NCBI RefSeq assembly: GCF_016919405.1
Contig: NZ_CP070353.1
Location: forward strand, 2,728,001-2,792,000
DNA from: Ensifer sp. PDNC004
GTDB taxonomy: Bacteria; Pseudomonadota; Alphaproteobacteria; Rhizobiales; Rhizobiaceae
Length of the DNA stretch: 64,000 bases
Direction of reading: 5' to 3'
The notes beneath the pieces were generated by a model. That model saw nothing but the letters and a program-made list of their open reading frames with translations. It made no database searches and had not been told where the DNA came from. The position numbers were made by a program, and so were the translations under genes. Positions 6,438 to 49,628 of the stretch are shown piece after piece; the first letter of the stretch is position 1; each line of letters opens with the position of its first letter.

Positions 6438-6719
6438 ATGCCGACAGAGAAGTCCATTTACGCGCACAAAGACGACGATCCGCATCTCATCGACGATGCG
6501 CTCGCCGACAAGGTGCTGCGCTACATCCAGTATGCGGCGATGATCGATACGCGCGAGATCTCGGTGATGGCGCTCGGCGGGATCGTGGTGCTTTCCGGCC
6601 ATGTGGCGCAGGCATCCGACATCGCTTGCGCCGGCGATGTCGCAGCATCGGTGATCGGCGTCACCAGCGTCGAGAACCGGCTGGCGGTGATGCCGGGCGC
6701 GGCCGAGGCTGATAGCTGA
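6438..6719 (+). CDS. BON-domain protein
   Basis: This 93-residue protein is essentially one BON domain: DALADKVLRYIQYAAMIDTREISVMALGGIVVLSGHV, then VTSVENRL. BON domains bind phospholipids or ligands and usually occur in periplasmic or envelope stress proteins (OsmY type). No signal peptide is visible, so it may be cytoplasmic. GAGGAAC precedes the ATG. The neighbours are a divergent AEC transporter and, downstream, a drug-efflux gene with its own leader. No functional link is evident. Confidence 0.8.
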   Translation: MPTEKSIYAHKDDDPHLIDDALADKVLRYIQYAAMIDTREISVMALGGIVVLSGHVAQASDIACAGDVAASVIGVTSVENRLAVMPGAAEADS

Positions 6720-6819
6720 GCGAGCAGTTGCCGTCCGGAAATCCCGATGATAGGACATGCCGGCATGAGATTTCGGCTGGCTTGGCGTTATCGCTGGAGA
6801 GCCGCCATAGGAGCCGCAG

Positions 6820-6849
6820 ATGAGGACCGACCCGTCAGCAACCAGGTAA
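6820..6849 (+). promoter_or_regulatory. Nine-codon leader ORF of the MFS efflux gene
   Basis: ATG at 6820 opens a nine-codon ORF (MRTDPSATR, stop TAA at 6847). It has an excellent TAGGAG ribosome site six bases upstream (6808-6813). Its stop directly abuts the first arm of the hairpin at 6850. Known inducible cmlA/cat genes use a short leader peptide (nine residues in cmlA) whose stalled ribosome frees the resistance gene's start. The architecture here is the same, in front of a FloR/CmlA-like exporter. The role is inferred. Confidence 0.6.
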
Positions 6850-6881
6850 GCCGCAACAACGGTTGAATAAGTTGTTGCGGC
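6850..6881 (+). promoter_or_regulatory. Hairpin in the efflux-gene leader (putative translational attenuator)
   Basis: A perfect 11-bp stem (GCCGCAACAAC at 6850-6860, GTTGTTGCGGC at 6871-6881) encloses a ten-base loop. It begins at the base after the leader ORF stop. Part of the second arm (GCGGCG, 6877-6882) can instead pair with CGCCGC at 6924-6929. This gives two mutually exclusive folds, as in translational attenuators. No U-run follows, which argues against an intrinsic terminator. Confidence 0.55.
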
Positions 6882-6960
6882 GTCTGTCGGCTCACACTCA
6901 GAACAGTTGATGAAGTGGCAGATCGCCGCCGAATGTTTTCATTTGCGCGGATGTATCATC

Positions 6961-8157
6961 ATGCCCGATCGTAATTCCCCCACCTGGCCCTACTCGCTGC
7001 CGGCAGCCCTTCTGCTGATGGCGCCCTTCGACATCCTGACGTCGCTCGCCATGGACATCTACCTGCCCGTCGTGCCCGACATGCCGGCCATCCTCGGCAC
7101 GTCGCCGGCAGTCGTCCAGCTCACGCTCAGCCTCTACATGCTGCTTTTGGGCCTGGGCCAGCTGCTGTTCGGCCCGCTGTCCGACCGCTTCGGCCGCCGG
7201 CCCGTGCTTCTCGGCGGCGCGACGCTGTTTGCCCTGTCGTCGCTGGGACTGGCGGCAACCACCTCGGCGCCGGTCTTCGTCGCCTTGCGGCTCGTCCAGG
7301 CGGCCGGCGCCTCGGCCGCCCTGGTCGCGACCTTCGCGACCGTGCGCGATGTCTATGGCGCGCGTCCGGAAGGCGTGACCATCTATGGCCTCTTCAGCGC
7401 CATGCTCTCCTTCGTACCGGCGCTCGGGCCGATCGCCGGCGCGCTGATCGCAGGCGCTTTCGGATGGCAAGCGATCTTCGTGACGCTTAGCGTTCTTGGC
7501 CTTGCCGCACTCGGCCAGGCCTTGCCGCGCTGGTCCGAAACCCGGCCCGACGCCGCTGCACCGGCAAAGCCGAGCTTCATGCCCATGCTCACAAGTGGTG
7601 CCTTCTGGACCTACACGCTTGGCTTCAGCACGGCGATGGGCGCGTTTTTCGTGTTCTTCTCCACCGCCCCACGCCTGCTCATCGATCGCGCCGGCTATTC
7701 GCAGCTGGGCTTCAGCCTGGCCTTCGCGACCGCTGCCGTCGTGATGATCATCGCCACGCGCTTCGCCAGGGGCTTCGTCGCCCGCTACGGGACCGCCGGT
7801 TGCCTGACCCGCGGCATGGCCCTGATCATCCTCGGCGGGCTGCTGCTTGGCGCGGGCGAAGTCTTGGCCGCTCCGTCGTTCGAGAGCTTCGTGCTGCCGA
7901 TGTGGGTGATCGCCTTCGGCATCGTCATGACCGCCTCGGTCACCGCCAATGGGGCGCTCAAGGCCTTCGATGCCATCGCCGGGACGGCGGTGGCGCTCTA
8001 CTTCTCGATCCAGAGCCTGATCGTCAGCCTTGTCGGCACTGGCGCCGTGCTGCTGCTTGGTGGCGATACGGCCTGGCCGCTCGTCGGCTATTGCCTCGGC
8101 ATGGCGGCGATCACGCTGCTGGCGCTGGCGTTTCTCGACCGGCGCAAAATTCGATAG
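6961..8157 (+). CDS. CmlA/FloR-like chloramphenicol/florfenicol MFS exporter
   Basis: This 398-residue drug:proton antiporter has 12 predicted membrane segments (DHA1 group). Its similarity to FloR/CmlA is obvious by eye: YSLPAALLLMAPFDIL, LAMDIYLPVVP, GQLLFGPLSDRFGRRP (motif A), LVATFATVRDVY, FVPALGPIAGALI (motif C), FFVFFSTAPR and SVTANGALKAF all have near-identical counterparts in FloR. Its length is close to the 404 of FloR. The start at 6961 aligns with FloR/CmlA starts; an in-frame ATG at 6910 would add 17 unlike residues. The upstream leader ORF and hairpin suggest inducible translation. Base composition is like the neighbours, so it looks resident rather than recently acquired. Confidence 0.88.
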   Translation: MPDRNSPTWPYSLPAALLLMAPFDILTSLAMDIYLPVVPDMPAILGTSPAVVQLTLSLYMLLLGLGQLLFGPLSDRFGRRPVLLGGATLFALSSLGLAATTSAPVFVALRLVQAAGASAALVATFATVRDVYGARPEGVTIYGLFSAMLSFVPALGPIAGALIAGAFGWQAIFVTLSVLGLAALGQALPRWSETRPDAAAPAKPSFMPMLTSGAFWTYTLGFSTAMGAFFVFFSTAPRLLIDRAGYSQLGFSLAFATAAVVMIIATRFARGFVARYGTAGCLTRGMALIILGGLLLGAGEVLAAPSFESFVLPMWVIAFGIVMTASVTANGALKAFDAIAGTAVALYFSIQSLIVSLVGTGAVLLLGGDTAWPLVGYCLGMAAITLLALAFLDRRKIR

Positions 8158-10069: not shown

Positions 10070-10086
10070 ACTTACAAGCCGCGCAG

Positions 10087-10299
10087 TCCCGGACGGAAAA
10101 CCGCTGTGCACTTTTCCTGGAATTGGCCTGTCTTGCTGACGCAATTCCGGACGGAAAACCGCTGTGCACTTTTCCTGGAATTCGCTCGTTTGGCTGGCGC
10201 AATCCCGGACGGAAAACCGCTACGCACTTTTCCTGGAATTGCTCGTTTGGCTGGCGCAATCCCGGACGGAAAACCGCTACGCACTTTTCCTGGAATTGC
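10087..10299. repeat. Four-copy tandem array of a 57-58 bp palindromic intergenic repeat
   Basis: Four units begin with CCGGACGGAAAACCGCT at 10089, 10147, 10205 and 10262, giving periods of 58, 58 and 57 bases. Each contains CACTTTTCCTGGAATT. Each unit can fold, because its outer edges GCAATTCC or GCAATCCC face GGAATTGC. Copies 1 and 2 share GTG where copies 3 and 4 have ACG. The array fills the gap between two convergent genes. The motif resembles the interspersed palindromic elements of rhizobial chromosomes, normally found singly. Confidence 0.85.
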
Positions 10300-44789: not shown

Positions 44790-45043
44790 GGGCAAATGGA
44801 TAGCGCGGGGCAAGCCAAAGGTCCATTGCGGTTTTCCCGCCAGACACTACATTCTCCACCAGCCGCGGTAGCCGCGATCGCCACCGCGGATTGCGGAAAC
44901 GGGGGTCGATTTCGCCCTGGGATCGAGCGCCTGAAGGCTTCGCAAGCGGCCGTTCAGCTTCACGCAAACGTTACGTATTTGTAATGTCCGATTCAGCCCT
45001 GGTATCCTTGAAAAGCCACATTTGAATCCTCAAATCTTAGTCA
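44790..45043. other. polA upstream region
   Basis: The region has no ORF with coding character. It must contain the polA promoter (minus) and, at its right end, the small-RNA promoter. Only short GC dyads were seen in 44850-44960. Confidence 0.35.
45008..45036 (+). promoter_or_regulatory. Candidate promoter of the AbcR-type sRNA
   Basis: TTGAAA (45008-45013) and CAAATC (45031-45036) with 17-bp spacing sit just upstream of the structured RNA. The -10 element is weak, so the true start might be some bases downstream. Confidence 0.4.
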
Positions 45044-45190
45044 ACGGCACCGAGTGATGCCGTCTTCTGGTGATTGGCCTGTCCCCCGCCCGCACCAGAT
45101 GAGGACAAAGGCCTTATCCCCCTCTCCGGGCCTTTGTCCCGTTTTCAAAAGACCGTCACGGCGCCGCCTCCGCACCGTGACGGTTTTTTG
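45044..45190 (+). ncRNA. AbcR-type (alpha-r15) trans-acting sRNA
   Basis: Three consecutive hairpins end in a textbook terminator. Stem 1 is TCTGGTG/CACCAGA (45066-45099) with a C-rich loop (GTCCCCCGCCC). Stem 2 is GGACAAAGGCC/GGCCTTTGTCC (45103-45139) with a TCCCCCTCTCC loop. Stem 3 is ACCGTCACGG/CCGTGACGGT (45152-45184) followed by six or more T. The flanking genes, polA and a marR gene, are those of the abcR locus in Sinorhizobium. AbcR RNAs use C/U-rich loops to block ABC-transporter mRNAs through Hfq. Only one copy is present here. The 5' end is approximate. Confidence 0.82.
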
Positions 45191-49502: not shown

Positions 49503-49621
49503 AATGAAAAGAGCCCCGTGTGGGAGGAGGTACACGGGGCTCTCGAACTTGATCGACAGCTGGGAGGAGGAGTGCCGCCGATCCGCATCGGGCGCCGCGG
49601 GAGGAGGTGCAGCGCTTCGAT
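49503..49621 (-). ncRNA. alpha-r14 (NfeR1-like) sRNA with three anti-Shine-Dalgarno hairpins
   Basis: On the minus strand, about 119 bases form three hairpins, each displaying CCTCCTCCC in its loop. Stem 1 is GCGCTGC/GCGGCGC, stem 2 GATCGGC/GTCGATC and stem 3 GAGCCCCGTGT/ACACGGGGCTC, followed by TTTTC as terminator. A TTGAAA-17-TATTAT promoter lies at the expected distance. The alpha-r14 family of Rhizobiales, including NfeR1 of S. meliloti (about 123 nt), has precisely this three-fold motif and masks ribosome sites of many mRNAs. Confidence 0.88.
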
Positions 49622-49628
49622 AAGTCGT

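Follow-up and report, generated by a model that had tools for sequence, protein, structure and literature searches.

In the translational attenuators of the cat and erm genes, a ribosome stalled by the drug on a leader frees a hidden ribosome-binding site, as is proposed below for the present element; the leader peptide is different, and the gene is unrelated to that of the CmlA/FloR device. Both attenuators are named in the accessible text of PMC8876359, which, after Stokes and Hall (1991), describes the cmlA leader as nine residues long and the stem-loops as two alternate pairs. As far as the accessible literature text goes, this cmlA attenuator of the Tn1696 integron resembles the present element in its nine-residue leader, its alternate stem-loops, its hidden ribosome site and its exporter of the CmlA/FloR family. 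The sequence KNAD of the CmlA leader is a known chloramphenicol-dependent arrest sequence (PMC10192921, accessible part), and chloramphenicol arrest is best with a penultimate Ala, Ser or Thr being weaker (PMC8987054, accessible part). For floR (ICEApl2 / pAR060302 and floR variants), a putative attenuator with a nine-residue leader and an 11-bp inverted repeat has been described, which is alike in these respects; in the accessible text of the two papers, by Li et al. (PMC5890775) and a 2021 study (PMC8256890), there is one hairpin, the stem-loop reported besides the leader does not overlap the ribosome site, and the 2021 study calls the role of the stem-loop in floR induction not clear. Among the literature matches listed, which covered few subscription papers, no title concerned rhizobial versions or a segment 3/4 switch of floR.

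The element described here lies in the window, i.e., the whole stretch of 64,000 nucleotides of Ensifer sp. PDNC004 DNA that was analysed (Table 1). According to sequence comparison and folding models, it belongs to the known cmlA translational-attenuator kind as a chromosomal member. Specifically, the computations found a short nine-residue leader directly before the resistance gene, a downstream CmlA/FloR exporter, and alternative stem-loops, one of which would hide the ribosome site, with strong covariation for helix 3:4 alone. Arms 1 and 2 of the cmlA loci closely resemble those of the window, whereas the leader ends with ADK in cmlA and with ATR in the window, codon 8 thus being Asp in the former and Thr in the latter. 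While cmlA resides on an integron cassette of Tn1696 and starts with GTG, the window device, from a genome of the Ensifer type (6.78 Mb), is carried on a contig of 4.15 Mb and precedes a FloR-like exporter, approximately 48% identical to CmlA, that starts with ATG. Loci L032 and L033 contain sequence homologous to the floR attenuator; to the single hairpin of the floR papers, the present analysis adds segments 3 and 4 and the modelled switch. The device is known in kind, and its anatomy is well supported, the new part being a conserved layout that would supply the missing link of floR.

Table 1. Positions of the leader, the RNA segments and the exporter gene in the window
Feature	Sequence or content	Positions	Strand	Basis or remark
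Leader ribosome site	AGGAG, 6 nt before ATG	6809..6813	+	Read in the sequence
Leader	MRTDPSATR, nine codons (ATG 6820, TAA ends 6849)	6820..6849	+	Sequence, orthologs, tree
Arm 1	GCCGCAACAAC	6850..6860	+	Starts one base past the leader stop; 11-bp hairpin with 6871-6881
Arm 2	GTTGTTGCGGC at 6871-6881	6871..6882	+	Would pair with arm 1 in the OFF state
Arm 2, part	GCGGCG	6877..6882	+	Would pair with segment 3 in the ON state
Anchor helix, 5' side	UCUGUC	6883..6888	+	In both the unmasked and the masked folds
Anchor helix, 3' side	GGCAGA	6917..6922	+	Folds and alignment
Segment 3	CGCCGC (6924-6929) for arm 2; CCGC and GAAUG for segment 4	6924..6935	+	
Segment 4	Includes the weak exporter ribosome site GCGGA	6940..6951	+	Predicted to be hidden in the OFF state
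Exporter, CmlA/FloR family	398 aa, chosen start ATG 6961	6961..8157	+	NCBIfam profile

The gene had been called a FloR/CmlA-like exporter in the preliminary description, and its product exceeds the equivalog cut-off of NCBIfam profile NF033134 (cmlA_floR) with 621.3 against 450 bits; its score with the FloR-proper profile is 566 bits, below the threshold of 700, and its Pfam domain is MFS_1. A BON-domain gene lies upstream and a MerR-type regulator gene downstream on the same strand. A longer N-terminus starting at TTG 6907 or ATG 6910 would be in frame and open here and was rejected since an upstream start is rarely kept: only 9 of 44 sequences, the window included, have an in-frame upstream ATG, and the gap between leader and start varies modulo 3. 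For this reason, ATG 6961 was chosen. No sigma-70-like promoter was found within 6600-7000.

The first search covered 101 genomes. Orthologs with at least 68% identity were present in 16 of 16 genomes of the genus (its own included), the gene of G003 being split into two frames, and at all 19 ortholog loci the leader ends with Ser/Thr-Ala/Ser-x-x-stop and is immediately followed by GCCGC. Inspection by eye of the 190 nt upstream of 11 distant relatives (L020-L030) revealed no such leader or hairpin. The full set of 103 loci consists of the first orthologs, the best 80 of 277 relatives from a scan of named genomes, and four plasmid loci; some genomes were fetched twice and many floR copies are near-identical, and the 98 loci with a leader reduce to 44 clusters at 95%. 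In 43 comparisons with the window locus, identity was 0.52-0.93 for the element and 0.34-0.61 for 100 nt upstream of the leader (-120 to -21). At the level of sequence, conservation among orthologs is independent evidence that argues against a chance arrangement.

The nine-codon frame and its ribosome site are present as the preliminary description had reported them. An SD-like word precedes the leader in 31 of the 44 non-redundant sequences by a simple search, the remaining 13 having a weak site. Leaders were found at 98 of the partly redundant 103 loci, and 97 of them have exactly nine codons; in the exception, L063 (Rhizobium rhizogenes OV677, L063 1355-1494), the leader stop is lost and the frame enters the hairpin, with the arms kept. 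Over the 98 leaders, codon 6 is Ser in 93, codon 7 is Ala in 87 and Ser in the other 11, codon 8 is Asp in 72, Thr in 23, Ala in 2 and Glu in 1, and codon 9 is Lys or Arg in 94. On the careful tree of the protein, which has 51 rows and for which 43 leaders were counted, codons 2 to 9 showed 2, 11, 19, 11, 3, 2, 3, and 9 changes, respectively. Codons 6 to 8, with few changes, are therefore held, while codons 3 to 5, with many, drift. The pooled pN/pS ratio was 0.70 for codons 2-5 versus 0.53 for codons 6-9, a contrast that is modest because the RNA is constrained as well. If codon 8 occupies the P site, codon 7 would encode the penultimate residue, and drug-dependent arrest is predicted; with Ala or Ser at this position in every case, the 98 leaders offer a natural test of the context rule that governs arrest by chloramphenicol. 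The cmlA loci encode MSISKNADK (cmlA1, L184), MSTSKNADK (cmlA6, L185) and, as read by eye, MNTSKNADK (cmlA8, L186). Intermediate leaders, namely MGTSKSADK, MGNSKSADK, and MGTTESATR, connect the window leader with MSTSKNADK, to which it is homologous, with a putative arrest motif at codons 7-9.

The hairpin at 6850-6881 (helix 1:2), said to be touched by the leader stop, does begin at the next base. The proposed pairing of arm 2 with 6924-6929 (helix 2:3) holds, CGCCGC at this site being complementary to GCGGCG at 6877-6882, but the helix had been understated: six more pairs (6883-6888/6917-6922) extend it across one bulge, and seven do so in the masked fold. Similarly, segment 3 can pair with the region before the exporter start (helix 3:4) as had been proposed, but the four pairs given were too few, since nine are counted (6926-6929/6947-6950 and 6931-6935/6940-6944) and ten occur in the fold. 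Of 200 dinucleotide shuffles of the RNA from 6800 to 6990, 196 fold less well than the real sequence (z -2.2).

Pairing was scored in alignment A3, comprising 42 of the 44 clusters (L045 and L051, with linker inserts of approximately 60 nt, were dropped); the counts omit one pair of helix 2:3, made ambiguous by a gap, and one of helix 3:4. In helix 1:2, 99.8% of the 462 cells are paired and a single double change occurs, and 22 of 500 shuffles reached the observed value on each of five measures; its covariation is thin because the arm hardly varies. Helix 2:3 is paired in 94.2% of 462 cells, with double changes in two pairs. No shuffle out of 500 reached its percentage of pairing and 8 reached its covariation score, while the counts of changes and types were reached by 65, 119, and 167, the last value referring to double changes. 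For helix 3:4, paired in 91.8% of 376 cells, 12 double-change cells are distributed over four pairs; between 0 and 20 of 500 shuffles reached the five observed measures, the double changes being reached by 2, and sliding this helix by +1 or +2 gave as many double-change cells (13 and 14). Sliding the partners by 1-3 columns lowered pairing to 28-77% (1:2), 28-59% (2:3), and 30-45% (3:4). Helix 2:3 persists with another extension, invisible to the column count, in several sequences read by eye in A3, namely GCGGCGUUC/GAACGCCGC in L063 and L081, GCGGCGAUC/GAUCGCCGC in L111, and GCGGCGUC/GACGCCGC in L031. Overall, covariation supports helix 3:4 and in part helix 2:3, whereas helix 1:2 draws mainly on strict conservation. 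Compensatory stem changes, which had been suggested as a check, are thus clearest in 3:4 and thin in 1:2 and 2:3. The same description had named missing conservation of leader and stems as evidence against its reading; with 98 of 103 leaders and the pairing levels given above, that comparison turned out in its favour.

In the fold of the window RNA without a ribosome, helix 1:2, the anchor helix including 6883-6888/6917-6922, and helix 3:4 form together. Masking up to 6855-6860 yields a 13-pair 2:3 helix with one bulge that displaces 1:2, and opening 6944-6963 then costs 8.1-8.8 instead of 13.1 kcal/mol; the inner pairs of 3:4 (6930-6935/6940-6945) persist in the masked fold. Over the 44 non-redundant sequences, the mean opening cost was 13.3 kcal/mol without a ribosome and 7.7 with codon 8 in the P site, where masking is a crude stand-in for the ribosome and the modelled cost still amounts to 5-11 kcal/mol. 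By P-site position, the mean cost remained at least 11.3 kcal/mol through codon 6 and was 7.9 at codon 7. The change on masking at codon 8 averaged -5.6 kcal/mol, and 43 of the 44 sequences dropped by more than 1. The floR2-type L017, which stands for 21 loci, changed by only -0.9 at codon 8, yet it opens at codons 7 and 9. When the linker and segment 3 were shuffled (8 times each), the mean change was -0.8 versus -5.6 for the real sequences, and 2.8% of the shuffles reached the drop of their real sequence; the closed state cost 13.3 (real) versus 10.1 kcal/mol (shuffled) and the open state 7.7 versus 9.3. In the cmlA loci L184 and L185, the modelled cost starts at 12.2-12.9 and reaches 6.2-6.4 at codon 8; roughly half of this fall precedes codon 7. 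In the Aminobacter loci L045 and L051, an insert of approximately 60 nt lengthens the stretch from hairpin 1 to the start, and the modelled drop is retained.

The earlier proposal that a stalled ribosome opens arm 1 and frees the exporter start is in line with these models, in which masking lowers the opening cost of the start. The exporter would probably be switched on only when the drug stalls ribosomes on the leader. Without drug (OFF), arm 1 would pair with arm 2, leaving segment 3 free for segment 4, and the 3:4 pairing, of which the anatomy is evident and the folding modelled, would hide the ribosome site of the exporter. On arrest by chloramphenicol or a relative, the ribosome on the leader would have codon 8 in its P site and Ala7 as penultimate residue. 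According to the modelled geometry, the arrested ribosome would cover arm 1. The anchor helix would then guide arm 2 to segment 3, and their pairing would free the exporter start (ON), so that induction may follow. From the tree described below, the device would be native to the chromosomal CmlA/FloR gene and would have travelled with floR on its mobilisation.

Transcription attenuation would have stalling on the leader block an intrinsic or Rho-dependent terminator before the exporter, translation being secondary, and we consider it improbable. It would draw on a single terminator-like site in the window (6915-6929), but this is near the chance level (1 found versus 0.3 expected), and the ribosome site itself lies in segment 4. 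None of the 44 sequences has a five-T run within the 12 nt that follow hairpin 1 or among the final 16 nt to the start codon, and an intrinsic terminator was rejected for want of a T run. An increase in mRNA can also come from protection by translating ribosomes, which counts against transcription attenuation. In its favour, floR mRNA increases on induction in other bacteria according to the accessible text of PMC8256890, which also cites two earlier reports, and induction at this level is a counter-point to control of translation alone, which does not require it. Marginally less credit is due to a constitutive element for translation coupling or mRNA stability that involves no drug sensing: the published induction data come from organisms other than this one, and a ribosome that terminates on the leader opens the folding model too, but constitutive coupling would not need the held codons 6-8, with Ala or Ser at codon 7 in 98 of 98 leaders, and genus g411 keeps the leader motif although the position of the stop shifts. 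Action of the leader peptide on other transcripts in trans, of which peTrpL of the related Sinorhizobium meliloti is a reported example (PMC7298713, accessible part), is hardly to be expected, given that the hairpin adjoins the leader, the exporter follows in the lineages read, and the element occurs once in the genome. We regard the element as very probably a device of the cmlA type that acts in cis to attenuate translation and that floR took with it on its mobilisation.

Distribution was assessed with a covariance model, which detects one element in the window (121.6 bits, the training set having included this sequence); of the two further matches listed there, one is the palindromic hairpin read on the other strand and one has an E value of 0.95. 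In the whole 6.8-Mb genome, again one element was detected, besides the same palindrome and one match at E 8.5. Among 297 genomes of the family, 44 have strong matches (E <= 2.1e-11) and two more have weak ones; the weak matches (G041 and G616) were read and look like chance. The spread of CmlA/FloR is patchy, with profile scores above the cut-off in 47 of these 297 genomes. In 43 of the 44 genomes with strong matches, a CmlA/FloR domain scoring above the cut-off follows the element at a distance of 9-30 nt and on the same strand, and in the 44th, G003, the element precedes the CmlA/FloR gene split into two frames; in none of the 44 was it found before another kind of gene. A draw across the order yielded the element in 10 of 297 genomes, six in the family of the window and four in one genus of another family, and an even draw across the class with strict filters yielded the genome of the window alone (1 of 385). 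Genome G545 has a second element, L177 (G545:C9:11781-11934), with the leader METMQTADR as read by eye; it precedes a CmlA/FloR start that appears degraded since no open frame of 100 codons continues.

The four CmlA/FloR genes lacking a model match all belong to genus g411 (L178-L181). Their leaders of 11-16 codons, MKSATRTAAMFII, MGKVESATRQP, MSTVESATRSAVNFII, and MSKVESATRSAVNFII, each followed by a stop codon, keep the SATR motif, and the 1:2 hairpin is kept with changed arms, three loci having GCCGTAAATTT/AAATTTACGGC. The modelled opening cost declines from 9.5-15.1 to 3.8-5.7 kcal/mol with the Thr codon of SATR in the P site. In all four, part of this fall occurs four codons earlier because leader codons pair with the ribosome site of the exporter in the unmasked fold; this pairing in L178-L181 represents an extra lock, none being seen in the window. 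In the masked folds of L178, L179, and L180, the partner of arm 2 (GGCGU) is ACGCC or AUGCC next to the ribosome site, whereas in L181 arm 2 pairs elsewhere and a small hairpin by the ribosome site remains. As modelled, the exchange between arm 2 and segment 3 would thus be kept with other sequence in three of the four g411 genomes.

The trees leave out L019 (split gene) and redundant rows, and the careful tree also omits L186 and five outgroups. The careful tree contains a 12-row clade (support 100/100) with mobile floR (L033, L106), two leaderless Bacteroidota copies, Rhizobium rhizogenes OV677, Chelatococcus, and floR-like copies from several classes; besides the plasmid records, its rows are known as contigs. 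Together with its neighbours, a clade centred on Microvirga and a pair of Rhizobiaceae rows, this clade lies within a 21-row clade (100/98). The preliminary description had considered the chromosomal version probably ancestral; this reading finds support for floR, which nests among Hyphomicrobiales genes, and is undecided for cmlA, whose long branch joins another long branch in the careful tree. Judging from the tree, the most likely source of mobile floR is a Hyphomicrobiales genome in which the gene already had its sensor. Five of the 103 loci are leaderless (L100, L103, L105, L107, and L108); they are floR-like, come from Bacteroidota (records of Polaribacter, Flavobacterium, Chryseobacterium, and, twice, Myroides), and have different, A+T-rich upstream DNA without hairpins. 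Lacking leader and hairpins, these copies therefore cannot use the switch for their expression. On balance, we lean towards a wider reading, in which one RNA switch that senses antibiotics would have accompanied the CmlA/FloR exporters of Hyphomicrobiales throughout their radiation, maintained less by arm sequence than by the leader motif (Ser-Ala/Ser-Asp/Thr-Lys/Arg) and a rule of three-way pairing; mobile floR would have left with the sensor installed, sensor and gene could be re-joined by recombination, as in L065, and the sensor would have been dropped on capture into Bacteroidota. The rhizobial versions suggest old drug sensing in soil and plant-associated bacteria that travels with the resistance gene, and the conserved segments 3 and 4 offer a concrete, testable link between the floR hairpin and the distant ribosome site.

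Locus L065 (Comamonas testosteroni NFYY023, about 1297-1495) is an apparent natural recombinant: upstream DNA of the cmlA cassette and the leader MSTSKNADK are followed by a floR2-type hairpin with its arms and gene, and the changeover lies within a shared stretch at the leader end. At the gathering threshold, Rfam gave no match over 6820-6963, and in the whole window it matched only tRNA and the alphaproteobacterial small RNAs ar7 (45042-45189, + strand) and ar14 (49506-49625, - strand). The window also contains a 58-bp tandem repeat at 10081-10298, with 3.8 copies and 91% matches.
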